Shown: piece by piece, positions 9,649 through 21,179 of the stretch | Layout: each line of letters begins with the position of its first letter | How positions within the stretch are numbered: position 1 is the first letter of the stretch | IMG/VR virus record: IMGVR_UViG_3300032285_004238 | Span: 1 to 29,279 of that record | Origin: a virus | Strand: one strand, 5' to 3' | Length of the DNA: 29,279 bases | The notes under the pieces: model-generated | What the model was told of the DNA's origin: nothing | What the model saw: the letters and a program-made list of their open reading frames with translations, nothing else | Database searches by the model: none | Position numbers and translations under genes: made by a program

Positions 9649-10295
9649 AAGTTGTAATCGGACCTTATCGTAGTTGGATTGGACCTTATCAAATTGCTGA
9701 GGCACTTTGCTGGTGGGCACCAAAAGTCAAAGCTACTGACGATATTGTTGCACGTAAACCTGATTGGGTTCATGACTTTGGCACTTGGTTAGCAGAAGAT
9801 AAGTCGGGCAATGACAGTTGGCTAACAAAAGTTTGTCAGTGGATAGAATCTAAAAAATCACGTCAAGTCTATATTCGTGTGGACAAGTATGATAGTTGGA
9901 GTGCAGACCATACACTTGCACTAATTGCAGTTCCACTACTCAAGCAGTTACAAATTTCAAAGCACGGAGCTCCCAACGTTGATGATGAAGATGTGCCAGA
10001 AGATTTGCGTAGTACTAATGCTCCTGCCAAAGAGCATGAACACGATTGTGATGCCAATCACTTTCGTCGTTGGGACTGGGTGTTATCAGAAATTATTTGG
10101 GCACTAGAACAAAAAATTAGCGACACAGCAGAAGACGAGTTTTATTCAAAAGTTGATGCAACAATGAAATCCAAAAATATCAATGATGTAATGGAAAACA
10201 TTGTTATTGACTGGACAGGTATGCAAAAATGGCAAGAACGCAAGAATCGCGGTTACAAGCTGTTTGGCAAGTATTTTGAAAATTTATGGGATTAA
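9645..10295 (+). CDS. conserved phage protein, 216 aa, unknown function
   Basis: Opens MKVVIGPYRSWIGPYQIAEA and is Trp-rich (over a dozen Trp). It has a YIRVDKYDSWSADHTLALIA strand-turn segment, an acidic HEHDCDANHFRRWDWVLSEI middle and an ENIVIDWTGMQKWQERKNRG end. Proteins with this 'GPYRxW..PY' start and D-x-W-S-x-D-x-T-L-A core are found in many myoviruses without an assigned role. Overlaps the preceding gene by 4 nt. Confidence 0.8.
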   Translation: MKVVIGPYRSWIGPYQIAEALCWWAPKVKATDDIVARKPDWVHDFGTWLAEDKSGNDSWLTKVCQWIESKKSRQVYIRVDKYDSWSADHTLALIAVPLLKQLQISKHGAPNVDDEDVPEDLRSTNAPAKEHEHDCDANHFRRWDWVLSEIIWALEQKISDTAEDEFYSKVDATMKSKNINDVMENIVIDWTGMQKWQERKNRGYKLFGKYFENLWD

Positions 10296-13618: not shown

Positions 13619-14413
13619 ATGAAGATTACCAAACAAGATATTTATGAATTGGACTTAAAAGCGATAAATTCCATGACGGATCTGGAACTTGAAGAATTTT
13701 GCACATCCAATAAGCTGTCCCACTTTTACACCTGGTTGCTGCCACAAATGGTGGCACACTTTGGTTCATGGACACTAGCATACACAGCTGAGGGTCAAAT
13801 CGATGTTTTAGCAACTCTTAAACACAATGTTGGTACTGATCCTAGTAAACAGGCAATTTGGAAGCTTAGTAGGGTAAAACGCAGCTTGCTAATTCCCATC
13901 ATGTCGAAAGCACCAGAATACGGTACACTTACTCCATTAATCTTAATGGGATTGAAAAGAATGCAAGGAGTTACTTATAATAGTTGGAGAGCCTTAAACA
14001 ACTTGGAGTATATTTTAGAGCCACAACTATATGCTGCACTTAACCTTAATCATGACGACTTACAAGTTTGTGGCAGTTTAGGGTCGGATAGACTCTTAGA
14101 ACTACGAGAACAAGGATTAATGCAACGAACTGGAGCCAAGGCAGGTCAAATGAAAAAACCTGAGTCTACTTGGAGTTTAACAGGTATGCAAGGCACTGAG
14201 ATTGCACATCTTCCAAAACTCACACAAACAATGCTAACCCAAATATGGTTGGCACATCCTAGTCTAAGAACACCTTATATGATCTTAGACCCAAACAACT
14301 GGGATAATCTTCCCAATCCTTTAGTAACCCCTGATATTTTTAAGGCTCCTGAGCCTGAAGTAGTTCGTAAACCCAAACCAGAGCCAGTAGTAGATAAGCT
14401 ACCTTGGATGTAA
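13619..14413 (+). CDS. unknown 264-aa protein behind structured leader
   Basis: The product starts MKITKQDIYELDLKAINSMT and has a helical acidic N-terminus, a middle with KQAIWKLSRVKRSLLIPIMS and MGLKRMQGVTYNSWRALNNL, and a Pro-rich tail (PEPEVVRKPKPEPVVDKLPWM). The basic 80-130 region could contact nucleic acid. A copy of the repeat motif is inside the gene (GSLGSD). There is no strong RBS. It is followed by an HTH gene 2 nt after its stop. A replication or regulatory role is only suggested by context. Confidence 0.75.
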   Translation: MKITKQDIYELDLKAINSMTDLELEEFCTSNKLSHFYTWLLPQMVAHFGSWTLAYTAEGQIDVLATLKHNVGTDPSKQAIWKLSRVKRSLLIPIMSKAPEYGTLTPLILMGLKRMQGVTYNSWRALNNLEYILEPQLYAALNLNHDDLQVCGSLGSDRLLELREQGLMQRTGAKAGQMKKPESTWSLTGMQGTEIAHLPKLTQTMLTQIWLAHPSLRTPYMILDPNNWDNLPNPLVTPDIFKAPEPEVVRKPKPEPVVDKLPWM

Positions 14414-14415
14414 AA

Positions 14416-14769
14416 ATGAAATATACAAAAGAAATCACAGATAAATTAATTGCAGACTACAAGGCAGGTATTGCCGTTGCTACAATTGCAACGGACTTAG
14501 ATGTACCTGAACGGTCTGTGATTGCTAAATTAAGCTCTCTGGGCGTGTACACCAAGAAAAGCTATGTCAACAAGCGTGGTGAGGTACCAGTTAAAAAATC
14601 GGAGCACATCGAGCGTATTGCTGAGCTGCTCAACGTGGATGAAGAATTGTTAGAATCACTGGAAAAGGTAAACAAAACGGTTCTCAAGCTAATTGAAGCA
14701 AAATTGGCTCAGGTTGACCCTAAACTGCACCAAGTTACCACTAATTCGGAGTTATTTGCACTTAATTGA
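14416..14769 (+). CDS. HTH DNA-binding protein, paralogue A
   Basis: Residues 1-45 (MKYTKEITDKLIADYKAGIA ... VPERSVIAKLSSLGVYTKK) form a homeodomain/Myb-like helix-turn-helix: helix, G-(I/V)-xVxxIAxxL, then RSV(I/V)AKLS as recognition helix. A linker with VKK-S-E-H and a helical C-terminal LLNVDEELLESLEKVNKTVL segment follow. Three more copies of the family occur at 16079, 17054 and 20617. An upstream ATG at 14404 would add four residues. Its TGA stop is part of a TGACCCTAAAC repeat, and another copy lies inside its 3' end, so autoregulation is an attractive guess. Confidence 0.85.
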   Translation: MKYTKEITDKLIADYKAGIAVATIATDLDVPERSVIAKLSSLGVYTKKSYVNKRGEVPVKKSEHIERIAELLNVDEELLESLEKVNKTVLKLIEAKLAQVDPKLHQVTTNSELFALN

Positions 14770-14801
14770 CCCTAAACTGAGCAAATCAGCCTTATAAACA
14801 C

Positions 14802-14837
14802 AAAAGCCCACTTAAATTGCTTTAAGTGGGCTTTTTT
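14802..14837. terminator. rho-independent terminator
   Basis: GCCCACTTAAA/TTTAAGTGGGC (11 bp, loop TTGC) with an A run before and TTTTTT after; it can act in both directions. Confidence 0.95.
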
Positions 14838-14909
14838 GCGTGGGTTTTATTAACGTGTAAATTGTGTCGGCTTACTGCGGTTTAGGGTCAGACAGTCAAG
14901 AATATCCAC

Positions 14910-14939
14910 TTGACAAGGATTTGCACTGTGTGGTAAAAT
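14910..14939 (+). promoter_or_regulatory. promoter of the GGCGC family
   Basis: TTGACA, 18-nt spacer, TAAAAT followed at once by GGCGC. The transcript would begin near 14946 and meet the terminator at 14960-14996, giving an RNA of about 50 nt. Confidence 0.8.
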
Positions 14940-14959
14940 GGCGCAGGACCAGCCAAAAC

Positions 14960-14996
14960 AAAAGCCCCCAAGATTCGAGATCTTGAAGGGGCTTTT
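14960..14996. terminator. bidirectional terminator
   Basis: AAAAGCCCC pairs with GGGGCTTTT around an inner AAGAT/ATCTT stem. Read leftward it is followed by CTTTTGTTTT, so it fits the end of the long minus-strand RNA at least as well as the short plus RNA. Confidence 0.85.
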
Positions 14997-15841
14997 GAAA
15001 GCATTTGCTGTTGCAACAGCGTGGTCTTTTTTAACTCTAGCAGGATTTTTAAGATAATCAATCTACCTGACCCTAAACCGTGACTATTGCCACATACGAC
15101 CTTTGGTGATGAATCCATCGCGAAGTTGTTTAAGTGAGTGTTGCACGTTTCGGCTCTGTCACAGGCGATGCCTTATGCTGAGTATCCGTGACTAACTTGG
15201 TTACCGTTTTTTCAATTATTTTTACGACCCGCCACGATTTAGGGTCAGCACCATTATTTAAGCACCCGTAGCTAGGTCTTGTGCATATTAAGAAAGTATG
15301 GTTGCCACCGTACTTAATCGCCAGAGAGATTCCATACTCTCATTACAGTCACTAAAGTCTGCTCTTGGTTAGAAGATAGCTGTATTTAGTTAAGGTGTTC
15401 TTTCACCTCGAGATTCCTTTATAATGTTATCTCGAAACCAGTTTCTAGTTTTTAACTAACTCATAGCGGAGTCGGCATGGGATATAGGCGGAACATGCTG
15501 CCTAGTACTACTCATTACCTAACACCAGCAAGTGGTACACGCTAGGGGTTTCGTCCTGACCCTAAGGTACAGCAGGTTATGAGTATTGAAGTCTCAGTGA
15601 CCGTGCTGTGAAGTCTTGGGTTTCGCACAACTTTCATGTGCTCATCAGAGGGTTAGGGTGGGCTGTAACTTAACGCATTCAGTCACAATTAATAACTTAT
15701 CCAGATACGCATAGAGCTGGTGTTGGTTAACCCATATTCGTTTGGGGCTGTGGCTCAGAACTTTCCCACAATTAAGACGTATCTCCAAATGAGCTTGCTA
15801 TATGTTTTATGCTCTGAAGGCTGCTGTCACCCTATATTTCA
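14997..15841 (-). ncRNA. candidate large structured non-coding RNA
   Basis: No credible gene exists between 15081 and 16078. On the minus strand a promoter (15848-15876) and a terminator (14960-14996) bracket about 0.85 kb. Helices found by eye: 15703-15709 with 15778-15784; a long-range 9-bp helix AACACCAGC (15716-15724) with 15521-15529; hairpins at 15750-15769, 15393-15408, 15324-15341 and 15294-15315; TCGAGAT/ATCTCGA at 15408-15414 and 15429-15435; and a 13-bp helix (one wobble) of 15235-15247 with 15068-15080. A hammerhead-like core lies at 15618-15650. Size, setting and folding recall GOLLD/ROOL-type phage RNAs, but membership is not shown. Confidence 0.6.
15555..15653 (-). ncRNA. hammerhead-ribozyme-like motif
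   Basis: The minus strand reads CTGATGA, stem II GCACA-(7 nt)-TGTGC, then GAAA, exactly the catalytic half of a hammerhead. Stem III can form from ACCC(AAG) with (CTT)GGGT, extended by ACAGCA/TGCTGT. It ends in GTC, which would be cleaved between positions 15558 and 15557. Stem I has only three clear pairs next to the core (AGG/CCT), the weak point. The core is very unlikely by chance; activity is unproven. Confidence 0.55.
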
Positions 15842-15847
15842 ATAATA

Positions 15848-15876
15848 ATTATACAGTTTTTAAACTATACTTTCAA
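15848..15876 (-). promoter_or_regulatory. sigma70 promoter of the candidate ncRNA
   Basis: Minus strand: TTGAAA, 17-nt spacer, TGTATAATTAT. No gene lies downstream for more than 1 kb, so the product should be non-coding. Confidence 0.8.
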
Positions 15877-16018
15877 GTAAAAAATTAGACACTCGTTGCA
15901 ACTAGACTACTTTACTTTTGAGACTACTTTAAATTTATGAGTTTGAGTAAATGTTCATTTGCCTGCGGGCACCAATTGCTTGGTATTCATTAAGCCCTTC
16001 CCGACTGTCTAAGATATA

Positions 16019-16047
16019 ATTATACAGAATTTGGGGAAGAAGATCAA
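16019..16047 (-). promoter_or_regulatory. second leftward promoter upstream of the ncRNA
   Basis: Minus strand: TTGATC, 17-nt spacer, CTGTATAATTATATCTT. Nearly the same -10 region occurs at 16426-16454. Its transcript would cross 15880-16010, which has no gene but carries AGACTACTTT twice (15904, 15921) and an ACCAA-GCAA-TTGGT tetraloop hairpin. Confidence 0.75.
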
Positions 16048-16078
16048 GTTAAAATTTCTTGACCCTCAACCAACACAA

Positions 16079-16384
16079 TTACTGCAAGTTTTGGAGAATT
16101 GCTTCCAATACTTCGTGGTTGGCTTTTTCCAAGCTATCAAATGCTTCTGGGCTAGCTGAGCACAGCGAGGCAATGCGGTCAACCAATTCAGATTTTTTCA
16201 CACGAGTTGCACCTGTGGTCTTGGATTTAGCTGTGTAAACTCCCTCACGAGAGAGTTTTGCCACTACTGAACGAGTGGTTTTGCCGAACATTTGAGCCAA
16301 TGCTTCAACAGTAGCGCCAGCTTTATAGTTGGCAACAAGCTGAGCAGTTTGCTCAGGGGTATAGTTCACGGGTTTGTCAGTCAT
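16079..16384 (-). CDS. HTH DNA-binding protein, paralogue B
   Basis: Start MTDKPVNYTPEQTAQLVANY is preferred because AAAGGA lies 6 nt upstream; earlier ATGs at 16387 and 16399 exist. The N-terminal NYTPEQTAQLVANYKAGATV-EALA, then TTRSVVAKLSREGVYTAKS, is the HTH shared with paralogues A, C and D. The C-terminal domain (VKKSELVDRIASLCSASPEA ... SLEKANHEVLEAIL) also matches. It is probably a small dimeric regulator or nucleoid-type protein of the phage. Promoter at 16426-16454. Confidence 0.88.
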   Translation of the reverse strand: MTDKPVNYTPEQTAQLVANYKAGATVEALAQMFGKTTRSVVAKLSREGVYTAKSKTTGATRVKKSELVDRIASLCSASPEAFDSLEKANHEVLEAILQNLQ

Positions 16385-16425
16385 CATATGTCCTTTCAAA
16401 TGGTTTCTGCGCTGTTAAAGATATA

Positions 16426-16598: not shown

Positions 16599-16627
16599 AT
16601 TATAAAACTTTTTGAGATTTCGACCAA
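16599..16627 (-). promoter_or_regulatory. promoter of the 44-aa gene
   Basis: Minus strand: TTGGTC, 17-nt spacer, TATAAT. Confidence 0.7.
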
Positions 16628-16668
16628 GTGAAAATTTTCACACTTACGGTCCGTGGCTGAAAATACAC

Positions 16669-16698
16669 TTGACAAAACTAGTTTTCGCACTGTATAAT
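16669..16698 (+). promoter_or_regulatory. GGCGC-family promoter U1
   Basis: TTGACA, 18-nt spacer, TATAAT, then GGGCGCGC. Divergent from 16599-16627. The transcript would enter a repeat-rich region (16714-16929) that has no gene; CACGCTTAAGCGTG at about 16753 is a perfect palindrome. Confidence 0.85.
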
Positions 16699-16713
16699 GG
16701 GCGCGCGGCCAGC

Positions 16714-16929
16714 TCAAGGTTTTGCACTTGTCAAGGTTTTGCACTGGCGCAGCACGCTTAAGCGTGTGGAGCTTGTGGTCACAATTTGAACAATGCAGTC
16801 ACAATTTGAACCCTGCAGTTCAACATAATTATGCATTTTTAATTATAAGCAAGAATCGTGCCAGGTGCCGTGGCGCAAGAATCGTGCCAACTTTATAGAC
16901 CTGTGAGTAAAGCTCATGGGGCTGTGAGT
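16714..16929. repeat. four consecutive direct-repeat doublets
   Basis: TCAAGGTTTTGCACT occurs at 16714 and 16731; GTCACAATTTGAAC at 16778 and 16798; GCAAGAATCGTGCCA at 16849 and 16875; CTGTGAGT at 16901 and 16922. Each word is present exactly twice, 17-26 nt apart, and the words differ from one another. No gene is present. It could be a row of regulator sites, an origin with mixed iterons, or traces of local duplication. Confidence 0.8.
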
Positions 16930-16938
16930 TTATTTCGC

Positions 16939-16968
16939 TTGACACGGGTAAAAATTATATGTTATAAT
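16939..16968 (+). promoter_or_regulatory. GGCGC-family promoter U2 with palindromic -10
   Basis: TTGACA, 18-nt spacer, TATAAT, then TTTGGCGCC. The palindrome AAAATTATA-TGT-TATAATTTT (16951-16971) covers the -10. A perfect hairpin GCGAAGTGAG/CTCACTTCGC (16979-17000) follows immediately. Confidence 0.85.
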
Positions 16969-17011
16969 TTTGGCGCCCGCGAAGTGAGTGCTCACTTCGC
17001 TTGCTGATAAT

Positions 17012-17036
17012 AAAAAGCCGATTATAAATAATCGGC
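17012..17036 (-). terminator. terminator of the 17973-17054 operon
   Basis: On the minus strand GCCGATTAT/ATAATCGGC (9 bp, 2-nt centre) is followed by TTTTTATTAT. Confidence 0.85.
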
Positions 17037-17053
17037 ATATAATCATTATCTGA

Positions 17054-17374
17054 TTATATCGGTTTTGAATTTGCTAATGCTTCGAAAATCGCTTTTAATG
17101 CGTTTTTATTAGCTTTAGTTAATGATTCAATATCATTTTCAGGTAATCTCAAAATAGCGCCAATAGCATCGGCATGAGTATCTTTTTTAATTACCGATTC
17201 TCCGTTTTTGGTTTTATATTCTTTGCGAATATAAACCTTTTCACGCGATAATTTAGCGACAATACTGCGAACAGTTTTACCGAGATTATCTGCGATAATC
17301 TCAACGGATACTCCGTTTTGATAATCGGAAACCATTTTCATGGTTTGCTCAGGGGTATAATTAATGTTTTTCAT
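17054..17374 (-). CDS. HTH DNA-binding protein, paralogue C
   Basis: This 106-residue member of the family (MKNINYTPEQTMKMVSDYQN ... TVRSIVAKLSREKVYIRKE) is closest to paralogue D at 20617, sharing NYTPEQT, LGKTVRS(I/V)VAKLSREKVY, KKDTHAD and ESLTKAN. Its DNA is clearly more AT-rich than that of D and contains the inverted GAGATTATC/GATAATCTC at 17282-17302. Third gene of a minus operon with a membrane protein and a SprT-like protein. Confidence 0.88.
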   Translation of the reverse strand: MKNINYTPEQTMKMVSDYQNGVSVEIIADNLGKTVRSIVAKLSREKVYIRKEYKTKNGESVIKKDTHADAIGAILRLPENDIESLTKANKNALKAIFEALANSKPI

Positions 17375-17386
17375 TTATTTTCTCCT

Positions 17387-17599
17387 TTAAAATGAATTGT
17401 ATAAACCAAGGATATTAGCCAAAAAGAATGTACCATTAAGGGTAATTAATGATTTATCTTTTCGATAATATCCAACTATTAACCAAGATAATGATCCTAT
17501 AATAAAGAAACAATATCCCATAAAGAATAATTGACTGGCAACAATAAAAGCACCGATAATGCTAGATAATGTGCCAACCCAAGAAATTTTATTAATCAT
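17387..17599 (-). CDS. small polytopic membrane protein
   Basis: The 70 residues are mostly hydrophobic: MINKISWVGTLSSIIGAFIV, then LFFMGYCFFIIGSLSWLIVGYY, and a last helix with TFFLANILGLYNSF. Three transmembrane segments are likely, with the YYRKDK loop on the cytoplasmic side. It resembles small phage membrane proteins of unknown role, remotely PnuC-like in style. Its ATG overlaps the upstream stop by 4 nt. Confidence 0.75.
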   Translation of the reverse strand: MINKISWVGTLSSIIGAFIVASQLFFMGYCFFIIGSLSWLIVGYYRKDKSLITLNGTFFLANILGLYNSF

Positions 17600-17973
17600 C
17601 GTATAATTTCCATTGAATGATATTTATCGGGAGATAATCCATAGTTAATCATTATCTCGCACCAGTTTTTACCATGACCACATTTTGCTTCTGATAATCC
17701 GAAAAGATTATAATCGGCTTGGTGGATTATCTCATGTGGTAATATAACTTTAGTCATATTATGTGCATAATCAGGAGAATATATAAAGAATTTATATCCT
17801 AATTCTACAATATTAGAATCTTGATGACATAATCCTGCATTACGCCACAGATAACCATTTAATTCTATAATCGGTGGATTATAGCGAGTTAATCGGGGAT
17901 ATAATTCGCAAAGATTATCCCAAATAATCAATGTCTGATTATTTAAAATATTTAAAAGCTTTTTTCTGTCCAT
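17596..17973 (-). CDS. SprT-like zinc metalloprotease
   Basis: The 125 residues contain ILPHEIIHQADYNLFG with HExxH at 80-84, then a third ligand in CGHGKNWCEIM (about H100) and the family-typical hydrophobic Y-G-L-x-P end. This matches SprT/Spartan-like peptidases, which in eukaryotes degrade DNA-protein crosslinks. In phages the substrate is unknown. The TATAAT of its promoter ends 7 nt before the ATG, implying a nearly leaderless mRNA. Confidence 0.85.
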   Translation of the reverse strand: MDRKKLLNILNNQTLIIWDNLCELYPRLTRYNPPIIELNGYLWRNAGLCHQDSNIVELGYKFFIYSPDYAHNMTKVILPHEIIHQADYNLFGLSEAKCGHGKNWCEIMINYGLSPDKYHSMEIIR

Positions 17974-17980
17974 GTCCTAC

Positions 17981-18008
17981 ATTATACAGATTTGACCAGA
18001 CCTGACAA
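17981..18008 (-). promoter_or_regulatory. promoter giving a near-leaderless mRNA
   Basis: Minus strand: TTGTCA, 16-nt spacer, TATAAT, then only 7 nt to the ATG of the SprT-like gene. Confidence 0.8.
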
Positions 18009-18044
18009 GAGATTTTTTCTCACACCCATGTGAATTTTTTTCGC

Positions 18045-18074
18045 TTGACGCGGGCACAATTTTACTAGTAAAAT
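18045..18074 (+). promoter_or_regulatory. GGCGC-family promoter U3 with palindromic -10
   Basis: TTGACG, 18-nt spacer, TAAAAT, then TGGCGCC. The 18-bp perfect palindrome AATTTTACTAGTAAAATT (18058-18075) spans the -10. Divergent from 17981-18008. Confidence 0.85.
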
Positions 18075-18087
18075 TGGCGCCTCAAAA

Positions 18088-18131
18088 GTAATACTTTTGT
18101 TTTCAATTTTTTCTGGAAACAAAAGTATTAC
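18088..18131. terminator. bidirectional terminator / micro-RNA hairpin
   Basis: Perfect 15-bp stem GTAATACTTTTGTTT/AAACAAAAGTATTAC with a 14-nt loop. T-rich tracts follow on both sides. It ends the minus operon (stop at 18134) and also the U3 transcript, which would be about 65 nt. Confidence 0.85.
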
Positions 18132-18133
18132 AA

Positions 18134-18382
18134 TCATTTTTTGGGATTAATTTTATAATAAATAATAATTGCCAAAAATATTATATTCGCTGAATAATTA
18201 ATCAATAATGGCAAATCCATTTTAGGCAAAACGTAAGCAAATGTTAATATCTCGCCCCAAAACCATAATCCCAAAAACCCCCAAGTTAATCCCTCGGAGG
18301 ATTTTGTTTTAAATGATTCTATTGCTTGAGGTAATCCGCAGATTGCCAACATAATAGAACCAATATAACCTATAATATCCAT
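18134..18382 (-). CDS. SemiSWEET-like PQ-loop membrane protein
   Basis: The start MDIIGYIGSIMLAICGLPQA has AAGG upstream; a longer frame overlaps the exonuclease gene. The 82 residues form three transmembrane helices, with the PQ motif at residues 18-19 followed by KTKSSEGLTWGFLGLWFWGE and a last INYSANIIFLAIIIYYK helix. This is the layout of bacterial SemiSWEETs (about 85-95 residues), which work as homodimeric sugar carriers. A transporter in a phage is unusual; the substrate is unknown. It is co-transcribed with the DEDDh exonuclease. Confidence 0.85.
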   Translation of the reverse strand: MDIIGYIGSIMLAICGLPQAIESFKTKSSEGLTWGFLGLWFWGEILTFAYVLPKMDLPLLINYSANIIFLAIIIYYKINPKK

Positions 18383-18386
18383 TTTA

Positions 18387-19082
18387 TTAAGCCTTAAAAT
18401 TATCTCTGACTTGAAATTTATTCCAGTCATAAGGGATTATATTATCTTGCCAATTACGTTTTTTGAGAATATGTGAGAGAATAGGCAATTCAAAATCTCG
18501 GGCATCTTCTAATGCAGTATGTGGCTCGGTAATAAGATTATTATTAATAAAACCGCAAACCATTTCAGCATTTGTTTTGAATGTCATATTACCATGTTTT
18601 GTAACATTATTAAAACCATGATTATCTAAACAAAATTGTTTATATTTTTTGGTTTTGCAGATATTACCAATACTGGCTTGCCACAAACAAAACTTCTGAT
18701 TAAAACCTGATAAATCAATGCCAGTATTTGAGCATTTATTTAAATCAAAAGCGAGATTATATGCAGTTAATGAGGGATTATATTTGCCAATGGCTTGATT
18801 AATCCATTTATTAATTGCATTAACTGAAGCAAGCATACGAATACCATTATCTAGCATGGCAACATAACCCGCTTTGCGTTTATTCAAACCCTCATAACCC
18901 CAAATATCATTTGCTTTTTTATCATGGAATAATTCCATTGTGTTATAATGTCCAGCCACCAAAACAGCGCATTGATTATAAATGCGACCTTCACGATCAC
19001 AGATAACCATTGCAAAATCCGCCACAGTGTCAGCCATTGTGGTTTCTGTGTCCAGAATACAAAAGTATTGCTTTTTAGCCAT
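18387..19082 (-). CDS. DnaQ-like DEDDh 3'-5' exonuclease
   Basis: The 231 residues hold the exonuclease motifs: ExoI YFCILDTETT (D11, E13), ExoII in AYNLAFDLNK (D113) and ExoIII in HTALEDARDFELPIL (H188, D193). This is the RNase T/DnaQ epsilon arrangement. A free-standing enzyme of this kind may proofread, trim RNA or degrade nucleic acid. It has its own extended -10 promoter at 19109-19135 and a 20-nt leader with AAAGG. Confidence 0.88.
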   Translation of the reverse strand: MAKKQYFCILDTETTMADTVADFAMVICDREGRIYNQCAVLVAGHYNTMELFHDKKANDIWGYEGLNKRKAGYVAMLDNGIRMLASVNAINKWINQAIGKYNPSLTAYNLAFDLNKCSNTGIDLSGFNQKFCLWQASIGNICKTKKYKQFCLDNHGFNNVTKHGNMTFKTNAEMVCGFINNNLITEPHTALEDARDFELPILSHILKKRNWQDNIIPYDWNKFQVRDNFKA

Positions 19083-19108
19083 TGAGTGCCTTTAGTTGGT
19101 AAGCCTTA

Positions 19109-19135
19109 ATTATAGCAGAATTTTACCCATGTCAA
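19109..19135 (-). promoter_or_regulatory. promoter of the exonuclease-SemiSWEET operon
   Basis: Minus strand: TTGACA, a short 15-nt spacer, TGCTATAAT (extended -10). Confidence 0.75.
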
Positions 19136-19202
19136 CCAATATTATGAGAAAAAAATTCACGACCATGTGAGAAAATATCTTACAAAAATAGGGTTTACCC
19201 TA

Positions 19203-19232
19203 TTGACACGGGCTCAATTATACTAGTATAAT
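19203..19232 (+). promoter_or_regulatory. GGCGC-family promoter U4 with palindromic -10
   Basis: TTGACA, 18-nt spacer, TATAAT, then TGGCGC. The 20-bp perfect palindrome CAATTATACTAGTATAATTG (19215-19234) covers the -10. ATAGGG/CCCTAT just before the -35 forms a small hairpin, as it also does at U6. Confidence 0.88.
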
Positions 19233-19243
19233 TGGCGCAAACA

Positions 19244-19312
19244 GTGGTTTTAAAACCACAGTTATTTTGCAAACCTGAGTATTCAATTTTATTTGAATAC
19301 CCGAGTATTCAA
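19244..19312. terminator. hairpins after U4 and 3' of the HAD gene
   Basis: GTGGTTTT/AAAACCAC (19244-19259) is the first fold of the U4 transcript. GTATTCAA/TTGAATAC (19279-19300) follows, and a third GAGTATTCAA at 19303 could pair alternatively. The segment GCAAACCTGAGTATTCAA is repeated at U5. It sits just after the HAD gene stop and may end transcription in both directions. Confidence 0.65.
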
Positions 19313-19315
19313 AAA

Positions 19316-19792
19316 TTAGTGACCTTGTTTGCTTGGTACGTATACACCACGAATATTAAAACGATCACAAACCGCTTTTAAGTAATTTACATTGTCCTCA
19401 TAAAATGTAAATTCAGCATCTTTAAAAGGCTTGAGATTAAAAAACTTTGCAAGCCCATTTATTTTTAATGTACCGCCTGAGATATTGTCGCCATCATTGC
19501 GAGAAATAATGTAGTCAGGATTTCCCAATACCGAATCAATAAATGCAAGGTCAGGGGAACGCAAAACACGGGCAGTAGCAATAATGACAAAACACGATTC
19601 ATCTTTTAAGTCTCTTTTATATTGTTCAGCAAGTGGCAAAAGAGAATCATCTAATGCCCTATATTCGTTTTCTCTCCAATAGCCTAGATCAATTCGTTCG
19701 CCATTGTCATCTAAAATTGTGCGATACCTATGCAATGAACAAACGATTGTTCCATCCATATCATAAATTGAAACCTTTTTAATTTTAGACAT
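19316..19792 (-). CDS. HAD-superfamily phosphatase
   Basis: The 158-residue protein has the HAD nucleophile motif I, SIYDMDGTIV (D11, D13), motif II in VIIATARV and a C-terminal FTFYEDNVNYLKAV (motif IV-like acidic pair). Phage HAD proteins of this size resemble the phosphatase half of polynucleotide kinase 3'-phosphatase or nucleotidases. The substrate is not determined. AAGGATTAAAAA precedes the ATG. Confidence 0.85.
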   Translation of the reverse strand: MSKIKKVSIYDMDGTIVCSLHRYRTILDDNGERIDLGYWRENEYRALDDSLLPLAEQYKRDLKDESCFVIIATARVLRSPDLAFIDSVLGNPDYIISRNDGDNISGGTLKINGLAKFFNLKPFKDAEFTFYEDNVNYLKAVCDRFNIRGVYVPSKQGH

Positions 19793-19795
19793 TTT

Positions 19796-19915
19796 TTAAT
19801 CCTTGAAATATTGTGCTATTGCGCTTTTGTATTCTGTCATTGTAGCAAATTTTAGCCCATGACGCAAGCAAAATTTACGAAATTCTGCAAATTGTTTTGT
19901 TGTGTATTGTGTGTA
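19796..19915 (-). other. protein-like reading frame without a normal start
   Basis: A frame of 39 codons between stops reads TKQFAEFRKFCLRHGLKFAT, then MTEYKSAIAQYFKD, very protein-like, but the only ATG is 14 codons before its TAA. A TTG at codon 17 is possible. A TATAAT on the minus strand (19915-19920) would start transcription just ahead of it. It may be a leaderless or non-ATG gene, or the remains of one. It ends 3 nt before the HAD gene ATG. Confidence 0.35.
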
Positions 19916-19975
19916 TTATACACGAAAAAACGCCAAAAAATAATAACCCTACAAAAAATATGTTATAAAAAATCC

Positions 19976-20005
19976 TTGACACGCCCCAAAATTATATGAT
20001 ATAAT
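19976..20005 (+). promoter_or_regulatory. GGCGC-family promoter U5 with palindromic -10
   Basis: TTGACA, 18-nt spacer, TATAAT, then TTTGGCTC. A 25-bp palindrome (19986-20010, CCAAAATTATAT-G-ATATAATTTTGG in two halves) covers the -10. Confidence 0.85.
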
Positions 20006-20013
20006 TTTGGCTC

Positions 20014-20043
20014 AAAATTGAATACCTGAGTATTCAATTTTTT
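20014..20043 (+). terminator. terminator directly after U5
   Basis: AAAATTGAATAC/GTATTCAATTTT (12 bp, CTGA tetraloop) plus TTTTTT. The U5 RNA would be only about 35-40 nt, essentially one hairpin. Confidence 0.85.
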
Positions 20044-20059
20044 CTGCAAACCTGAGTAT

Positions 20060-20407
20060 TCAAAATGAAACCAAATCAACCGCATAATTCTTATTGAAAT
20101 AATCTCGCCATTGGGTGAAACCTGATTGTTTATCATGCGTTATATCTAGATCGTTTTCCATTTGCCAAGCATGGACATACTCATGCGCTAGAGTAGAAAA
20201 CAAATCAAAATCTGATTTTATTTCTGAAGTGGCAATGCGAATTTTGTGATGGCATTTTTTACCTACCTTTTCGCCCTCATACATTCCCATGCACGAATCA
20301 CCATCAAAACGCAAAACCTTGCATTTTGTAAAGTTAACCCTATGCTTCAACTTGAATTCATCTTGAAGCATAAGCTGGAACAATCTTGCTTTATCTGATT
20401 TAATCAT
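20060..20407 (-). CDS. SprT-like metallopeptidase, second copy
   Basis: The 115 residues show TLAHEYVHAWQMENDLDITH with HExxH at 75-79 and a further His at about 91, then GFTQWRDYFNKNYAVDLVSF. This is the SprT-like layout, but differs from the 17596 protein by much more than a recent duplication would give. An N-terminal CxxC-like part is absent. Its ATG overlaps the preceding TAA (TAATG). Confidence 0.85.
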   Translation of the reverse strand: MIKSDKARLFQLMLQDEFKLKHRVNFTKCKVLRFDGDSCMGMYEGEKVGKKCHHKIRIATSEIKSDFDLFSTLAHEYVHAWQMENDLDITHDKQSGFTQWRDYFNKNYAVDLVSF

Positions 20408-20568
20408 TAATCAACCTGAATATCTACAATCATATCATTGCGTACAATAAAGTACATTTCAACCAAACCCATAGAAACCCAAACACAGTCGTTACCATTA
20501 CGGATAGCATAGGGTTTATTAGGGTATTTTTTAGCTAAGTAGCTTTCAACAATTTCAAAATTTTTCAT
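20407..20568 (-). CDS. 53-aa small protein before SprT-like gene
   Basis: The product MKNFEIVESYLAKKYPNKPY ... SMGLVEMYFIVRNDMIVDIQ is a compact alpha/beta protein with no recognised motif. There is no Shine-Dalgarno site, and TATAAT ends 6 nt before the ATG, so the mRNA is probably leaderless. Confidence 0.75.
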   Translation of the reverse strand: MKNFEIVESYLAKKYPNKPYAIRNGNDCVWVSMGLVEMYFIVRNDMIVDIQVD

Positions 20569-20574
20569 ACGTTT

Positions 20575-20580
20575 ATTATA
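20575..20580 (-). promoter_or_regulatory. extended -10 promoter, leaderless
   Basis: Minus strand TGATATAAT with no good -35; transcription would start at or next to the ATG at 20568. It lies just downstream of the terminator at 20596-20612. Confidence 0.65.
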
Positions 20581-20595
20581 TCAGATAAAACAAGA

Positions 20596-20612
20596 TAGGG
20601 GCAAAGCCCCTA
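20596..20612 (-). terminator. terminator of HTH paralogue D
   Basis: TAGGGGC/GCCCCTA (loop TTT) followed by TCTTGTTTTAT on the minus strand. Confidence 0.85.
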
Positions 20613-20616
20613 TTGA

Positions 20617-20937
20617 TTACAAGGTCTTTTCAGCCTTGATAAAATCGGCAATCTTTGCCAATGCTACCTTGTTAGCCTTAGTCAGGCTTTCGGTATCAGC
20701 TTCGGTTAAGCCTAGCATCTCGCCAATAAAATCAGCGTGAGTATCTTTTTTAATCGGTGTTTCACCCGATTTTGTTTTGTATGCTTTAGCAACATAAACC
20801 TTTTCGCGCGATAGCTTCGCAACAACTGAACGCACAGTTTTACCCAATGCTTCAGCGATAGCGTCAACTGTCATACCGCCTTGGTAGTCGGCAACCATGC
20901 GAGCAGTTTGCTCAGGGGTGTAATTTACTGTTTTCAT
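20617..20937 (-). CDS. HTH DNA-binding protein, paralogue D
   Basis: The 106-residue product (MKTVNYTPEQTARMVADYQG ... TVRSVVAKLSREKVYVAKA) shares the HTH and C-terminal helical domain with paralogues A-C, closest to C. AAGGAGAG before the ATG is a good ribosome-binding site. Its promoter (20957-20985) lies over the 3' end of the upstream 31-aa gene, the same layout as paralogue B. Confidence 0.9.
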   Translation of the reverse strand: MKTVNYTPEQTARMVADYQGGMTVDAIAEALGKTVRSVVAKLSREKVYVAKAYKTKSGETPIKKDTHADFIGEMLGLTEADTESLTKANKVALAKIADFIKAEKTL

Positions 20938-20956
20938 TTTCTCTCCTTAAAAATCT

Positions 20957-20985
20957 ATTATATCACAAAGGCTTCATCATTGCAA
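20957..20985 (-). promoter_or_regulatory. promoter of HTH paralogue D
   Basis: Minus strand: TTGCAA, 17-nt spacer, TGATATAAT. Confidence 0.82.
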
Positions 20986-21058
20986 GACAAATCCACAATG
21001 GTGAAAAGGTTATTGCAACAAAGAAAATTGCTTGCAAAATTTCTATTAATAATTTCAT
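20963..21058 (-). CDS. 31-aa single-pass membrane peptide
   Basis: An AAGGAAACCAATC-ATG start opens MKLLIEILQAIFFVAITFSP LWICLAMMKPL (31 residues), one hydrophobic helix. It has its own consensus promoter (21087-21114). Same length and type as the peptide in the tRNA cluster, but no sequence similarity is obvious. Possible small membrane regulator; function unknown. Confidence 0.65.
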   Translation of the reverse strand: MKLLIEILQAIFFVAITFSPLWICLAMMKPL

Positions 21059-21086
21059 GATTGGTTTCCTTGTTATCATGTTTTCA

Positions 21087-21114
21087 ATTATAGATAAATG
21101 AAATTTTTTGTCAA
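21087..21114 (-). promoter_or_regulatory. promoter of the 31-aa peptide
   Basis: Minus strand: TTGACA, 16-nt spacer, TATAAT. Confidence 0.85.
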
Positions 21115-21151
21115 TACATTTGTTGAAATACAACATAGGGGTTTATCCCTA

Positions 21152-21179
21152 TTGACAGGGGCGGTTATTAGACTATAAT
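21152..21179 (+). promoter_or_regulatory. promoter U6 upstream of the head genes
   Basis: TTGACA, 16-nt spacer, TATAAT; preceded by an ATAGGG/CCCTAT hairpin as at U4. Divergent from 21087-21114. The leader to terS has a GGGCCCCCC tract and no gene. Confidence 0.85.

Follow-up and report, generated by a model that had tools for sequence, protein, structure and literature searches.

In E. coli, convergent transcripts are terminated where polymerases collide head-on, at a place set by a hairpin in the transcript whose stem has 8 bp (PMC13082048). Terminators with an antisense promoter behind them also work as a synthetic part, in which gene repression is lost when a bidirectional terminator lies in between (PMC4731013). 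In phage lambda, the OOP promoter is located between two genes and opposite to an operon; its short transcript overlaps the 3' end of cII and triggers cleavage of the message (PMC5869508). The present analysis concerns a family of sigma-70 promoter-like elements followed by a GGCGC motif, found in a 29,279-nt stretch of viral DNA (positions 1 to 29,279 of IMG/VR record IMGVR_UViG_3300032285_004238, called the window below). The TerL protein of the window is about 50% identical to that of T5-like Vibrio phages, which identifies the window as a fragment of a T5-like phage. We propose, with a probability of about 0.4, that the elements are transcription-unit boundary devices (insulators) of this T5-like clade. 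With the synthetic part and the E. coli collision system they share a hairpin or terminator at the 3' end, a promoter that would fire back, and a hairpin that would position the collision. They differ in being natural, locked to one strand and repeated at nearly every operon boundary of the region, and in having an 18-bp spacer, the GGCGC motif and a covarying repeat over the -10 box. Nor does a second gene supply the opposing polymerase here.

The distribution of the elements in the window was compared with chance expectation. TTGAC-N-N16-19-TANAAT-N0-4-GGCGC is matched five times, only on the plus strand, while 0.00 matches are expected (maximum 0 in 100 dinucleotide shuffles). Perfect TTGACA/TATAAT pairs number 8, against 0.08 expected. 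All six plus-strand promoter-like sites listed in a preliminary description of this DNA (14910, 16669, 16939, 18045, 19203 and 19976) were found at their coordinates. As had been claimed, they read toward the end of the adjacent minus-strand gene, and at several of them a minus-strand promoter lies close by, back to back with the element. The grouping of the six into one family holds with a correction: the sites at 14910 and 16669 are two other sub-types (types A and B), which lack the palindrome of the remaining type C elements and carry a GGWTTTGCACT-like sequence.

A collection of 294 non-redundant elements from 83 IMG/VR loci was then considered; these come from related contigs and are not independent of one another. 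An exact 36-base pattern matched in 21 contig stretches and a second pattern in 71, and no match to the palindromic element was obtained in 84,980 bacterial and archaeal genomes. Each of eleven long contigs, 36 to 100 kb in length, has its tagged promoters confined to one cluster on a single strand, and a reversed control pattern had no match there. Every element that could be oriented lies on the terminase strand (234/234; 175/175 in the first set). The preliminary description expected the motif to persist in relatives that keep the genes, and this is what is observed. Gaps between operons almost always hold an element: Exo-HAD (39/45), Pep-SWEET (29/34), HAD-SprT (28/29, the single exception being the GGCTC site of the window itself), D5c-D5 (16/16), D5-SWEET (10/10), HAD-g53 (9/9), HAD-D5 (8/8) and Pep-HAD (5/5). 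Gaps within operons hold none: SWEET-Exo (0/38), PQ-Pep (0/23), g53-D5 (0/23), SprT-g53 (0/15) and Exo-PQ (0/7). Operon limits were inferred from gene spacing and from the elements themselves. No reversed element occurs among the boundaries counted. Since some of these boundaries, such as Pep-HAD and D5-SWEET, arise only by rearrangement, the element goes with the boundary. A stop codon of a minus-strand open reading frame (ORF) lies within 400 nt of 269 of the 294 elements (median 75 nt), and the other 25 are at type A or B sites or beside a non-coding region described below. That the promoters drive plus-strand genes was rejected: at every boundary counted the right-hand gene is on the minus strand, and only 6/294 elements have a plus ORF of at least 60 amino acids (aa) and no minus ORF within 400 nt.

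An 18-bp spacer is found in 188/210 perfect elements, against 8/99 other perfect promoters of the same contigs, and an extended TGn -10 in 71/97 type C elements. A role of GGCGC as a start-site tag is at best partly supported: between 0 and 3 nt separate it from the -10, and at 16746 a GGCGC that has no promoter is conserved too. Type C elements have the -10 enclosed by an inverted repeat of 8 bp or more, whose loop usually measures 3 or 4 nt. Because loci found by palindromic patterns are biased to palindromes, its frequency is given for loci found through TerL only, where it is present in 24/38 elements, versus 2/99 other promoters. The two arms covary: 139 of the 174 distinct cores are palindromic, while 61 (maximum 73) are expected when left halves are dealt among elements. 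Outer bases change in step, as in CAATTATA..TATAATTG, CGATTATA..TATAATCG and CCATTATA..TATAATGG. The loop stays at 3, 4 or 5 nt (102, 30 and 7 cases) while the spacing of the half-sites varies, which argues for reading the repeat as a hairpin and not as a dimer site. Template-switching mutation within the palindrome could also make the arms alike. Within one genome, only 1 of 87 pairs of palindromes is identical (4.1 expected, P 0.03). A bidirectional promoter using a symmetric -10 was rejected as an explanation: it would give two -10s and leaves the step-wise change of both arms unexplained. In types A and B the palindrome is absent, with few exceptions, and a TTGACAAGGATTTGCACT-like sequence is present.

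Hairpins downstream of the promoters were called terminator-like by a simple rule at 86 type C elements. Such a hairpin is found on the plus strand at 51/86, against 6% in shuffles, on the minus strand at 33/86, and in both directions at 19. Where the first hairpin has a T run, the predicted transcript would be roughly 30 nt long. At the same junction, relatives show a similarity of 0.67 for the hairpin and 0.79 for the promoter core, versus 0.53 between different junctions and genomes. The hairpin sequence is thus less conserved than the promoter, which suggests that the act of transcription matters more than its product. Since the hairpins of one junction vary from relative to relative, selection is unlikely to act on a sequence-specific micro-RNA as the product. 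The micro-RNAs of 35-70 nt that had been deduced from the window therefore fare unevenly: the 51 plus-strand hairpins speak for them, the 35 elements without one and the poor conservation against. The variation of the hairpins between relatives was also the ground on which a trans-acting small RNA with a conserved seed was rejected. At the gathering threshold, Rfam reported only tRNAs and no family for the elements or the non-coding region. The claim that a separate promoter and terminator belong to every gene or operon on the minus strand is likewise borne out in part, with a good minus promoter within 160 bp to the left of 78/121 elements (40/121 in shuffles) and the minus-strand terminators limited to the share given above.

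On the insulator reading, a near-consensus promoter for the host sigma-70 would stand backward at the 3' end of each minus operon, with a hairpin directly after it. Polymerase loaded there would make a very short RNA at most and would meet head-on the minus polymerases finishing the operon; collision or roadblock, together with the hairpins, would end the minus transcript and keep read-through from the minus promoter that comes next, some tens of bases away. Firing of the promoters, termination helped by collision and a short RNA that is a by-product are predictions of this scheme. The layout agrees with it: the promoter sits at the 3' end of the transcription unit and points inward, and a hairpin, terminator-like in either direction at most type C elements, lies between promoter and gene end. 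Since a bidirectional terminator abolishes repression in the synthetic part, this arrangement fits insulation rather than repression. Several observations weigh against the proposal. Plus-strand terminators are missing, by the criteria used, at 35/86 type C elements, and a good minus terminator is already present at some boundaries (16939). Gaps within operons are shorter, and gap length may explain part of the contrast between boundaries. Three loci (L045, L082 and L096) lack the promoter at one boundary, the peptidase-SemiSWEET gap, and a short gap is without it in two others (L009 and L017), so the promoter is not indispensable; in the first three the flanking hairpins are kept, which indicates that the core behaves as a discrete module. 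Finally, an insulator needs neither a covarying inverted repeat over the -10 nor GGCGC. An antisense promoter at the end of a gene is commonly written off as noise, but in this clade nearly all operon ends of one region have retained a near-consensus one, on one strand only and with a base-pairing constraint superimposed on the -10. If they fire, they would be a natural, repeated case of promoters used as punctuation and could serve genetic engineers as compact, ready-made insulators, and they would offer a test of whether head-on collisions are selected to end transcription.

The main rival is antisense control of the OOP type, in which the plus RNA would pair with the 3' end of the minus messenger RNA (mRNA) and trigger its cleavage, or late anti-termination would let the RNA run on and silence the minus genes. 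The geometry is that of OOP (pO/tO), with a short RNA from its own promoter, opposite an operon and at a gene 3' end, as predicted here; all elements are on the late strand, and run-on from so many promoters would span the whole minus region. However, for about 60% of the distinct type C elements the transcript is predicted to stop short of the stop codon of the minus gene (the 51/86 with a plus terminator, the other 35/86 having none), and would then pair only with the hairpin of the 3' untranslated region. The antisense sequence is also less conserved than the promoter core, and where OOP is one RNA directed at one known target, the phage elements have variable hairpins in many copies per genome. 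We regard this explanation as unlikely. Another idea is a new class of phage boundary element whose -10 folds into a hairpin. Supercoiling, single-stranded DNA or a phage factor would then switch the backward promoter, and each operon end of the region would be a regulated antisense start yielding a hairpin RNA of about 30 nt; this appears distinctly unlikely to us. Alternatively, the inverted repeat, centred as it is on the promoter, would be an operator through which a phage repressor controls the backward promoters. The repressor could be one of four D5-like helix-turn-helix (HTH) proteins that adjoin the elements and are weakly similar to GcrA. Covarying arms and a loop held at 3-5 nt despite variable half-site spacing fit a hairpin better than a dimer site, on which ground a dimeric operator was rejected, and phages that carry these D5-like genes also have elements lacking the palindrome; we give the operator little credence.

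Two further explanations start from known phage elements. Arbiol et al. reportedly described, in 2010, PeSL units as mobile regulatory cassettes of T4-type phages in which the promoter serves the next gene. Such promoter/stem-loop cassettes are repeated intergenic units tied to modular genes, and the present elements, being repeated intergenic sigma-70 promoters with a stem-loop, resemble them and might provide homology for operon shuffling. Operon order is indeed rearranged at element boundaries in L090/L101-type phages, hairpin sub-units (GAATACCTGAGTATTC, AAACAAAAGTATTC and GCGAAGTGAGYGCT) are mixed between junctions, and the core is cleanly present or absent. But the palindromes almost never repeat within a genome, which lowers the homology between boundaries, and the promoter, instead of leading into a gene as in PeSL, marks a gene's boundary and faces the end of that gene. 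We consider a recombination module very unlikely. The last candidate is a site-specific nick or DNA-entry signal as in T5, with RGCGC as the nick sequence (R/GCGCRGG in T5) and the promoter-like part as recognition sequence. GGCGC fits R/GCGC, the elements keep to the terminase strand of a T5-like phage as the T5 nicks do, the promoter-less copy at 16746 is conserved, and GGATTTGCACT(...)GGCGCAG is common to types A and B and the nick of the T5 injection-stop region, GGATTTGCACAAAA/GCGCAGG. Type C, in contrast, reads GGCGCAAA or GGCGCC, without RGG or the flanking motif and with a full sigma-70 promoter, and GGCGCAGG is read at only some type A sites. The near-perfect -35 and -10 and the extended TGn would be superfluous for nicking, and published nick sites lie both inside and outside genes (PMC3517423, PMC11780129; T5 annotation). 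The chance that the elements are nick signals is slim. The TTGACAAGGATTTGCACT-like sequence of types A and B is reminiscent of GTCGGATTTGCACA, which is repeated in the injection-stop region of T5 and has one copy immediately before the nick GCGCAGG. GGWTTTGCACT repeats near GGCGC, at 14917-14926 and 16718-16750, resemble the GTCGGATTTGCACA repeats and the nick site of that region (T5 9745-9762), and all GTCGGATTTGCACA-like copies found in T5 are on the terminase strand.

The individual sites of the window are as follows. The type A element (14910..14944, plus strand) reads TTGACA-18-TAAAAT-GGCGC, that is TTGACAAGGATTTGCACT(...)TAAAAT-GGCGC, ends the minus-strand non-coding region and has a counterpart at this place in 12 members of the first set. 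A hairpin downstream (14959..14997; -23.1 kcal/mol, z -4.8), whose T run in relatives is stronger on the minus side, is terminator-like for minus transcripts that would arrive from the right. Type B (16669..16704, plus strand, TTGACA-18-TATAAT-G-GGCGC) has no palindrome and is back to back with a minus promoter (TTGGTC-17-TATAAT, 16627-16599) predicted to serve the next minus gene. Downstream of it are a promoter-less GGTTTTGCACTGGCGC motif (16735..16750, plus strand), kept in the relatives examined, and two tandem copies of TCACAATTTGAAC (16778-16817), of which there are more in L011. The first type C element (16939..16976, plus strand, TTGACA-18-TATAAT-TTT-GGCGC) has the inverted repeat AAAATTATA-tgt-TATAATTTT (16951..16971) over its -10 and, after GGCGC, the hairpin GCGAAGTGAGTGCTCACTTCGC (16979..17000, -14.2 kcal/mol). 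The second (18045..18080, plus strand, TTGACG-18-TAAAAT-T-GGCGC) has CAATTTTA-ctag-TAAAATTG (18057..18076) and an 18-bp hairpin, T-rich on both sides, at the end of the SemiSWEET-like gene (18088..18131). The minus promoter beside it, TTGTCA-16-TATAAT (18008-17981), is predicted to serve a peptidase-DUF6552-D5-like operon. In the third (19203..19238, plus strand, TTGACA-18-TATAAT-T-GGCGC), CAATTATA-ctag-TATAATTG (19215..19234) is followed by a hairpin in the GTGGTTTTAAAACCAC region (19240..19263, -8.0 kcal/mol), and a minus promoter (TTGACA-15-TATAAT, 19135-19109) would transcribe the PHROG_20187 and SemiSWEET-like genes. The fourth (19976..20013, plus strand) reads TTGACA-18-TATAAT-TTT-GGCTC where relatives read GGCGC; its repeat is CCAAAATTATA-tga-TATAATTTTGG (19986..20010), and a terminator-like hairpin, AAAATTGAATAC-CTGA-GTATTCAATTTT then T, follows (20014..20041, plus strand). 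The hairpins with T runs announced earlier were recovered both here (-10.2 kcal/mol, z -5.5) and at 18045, where two alternative folds have -3.9 and -21.3 kcal/mol (z -3.4 and -8.1). A further minus promoter, TTGACA-16-TATAAT, lies at 21114-21087; the promoter at 21152 is different, with a 16-bp spacer and no GGCGC, and faces the late genes.

The minus-strand genes between these sites form four predicted operons. The first (17054..17973) encodes an SprT-like peptidase, a DUF6552 protein and a D5-like HTH protein, and the second (18134..19082) a PHROG_20187 protein, which looks exonuclease-like, and a PQ-loop (SemiSWEET-like) protein. The latter is a phage-encoded membrane protein (18134-18430; Pfam PF04193, E 1e-10). 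The third (19316..19792) holds a protein of a PHROG polynucleotide-kinase family, and the fourth (20060..20937) an SprT-like protein, a 53-aa protein and a D5-like HTH protein, with zero elements within. The terminase operon lies directly to the right. Four D5-like HTH paralogues occur in or beside the cassettes (14404-14769, 16079-16399, 17054-17374 and 20617-20937); the three minus-strand copies, which were scanned, match the PHROG transcriptional regulator, D5-like, and the 14404 copy is assigned by sequence likeness only. Their weak similarity extends to sigma-70 region 4. The label "moron-like" given to these genes fits at best in part: they are syntenic across the clade and not scattered acquisitions, some members having rearranged operons. 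Relatives are common in IMG/VR (546 TerL stretches), and the clade presumably comes from lakes, an impression drawn from this source. A ThyX query against bacterial genomes gave no relative, and a named-phage collection no DNA match to the cassette region or the non-coding stretch, blastn matches there being short and due to chance.

The non-coding stretch (15000-16070, minus strand) is about 1 kb without ORFs and is conserved in 24 relatives. Its consensus scores -178 kcal/mol with RNAalifold on the minus strand, versus about -31 to -43 for column-shuffled alignments. Two-sided changes are seen in 47/147 pairs at 85% pairing or more, the plus strand scoring almost equally. From this modelling it is a candidate large structured RNA, recalling the 719-nt stable RNAX of T5, of unknown function. 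Around it, at 14715-15570, GACCCTAAAC and GTTTAGGGTC are repeated on both strands; they are possible iterons, or possibly helices of the candidate RNA.

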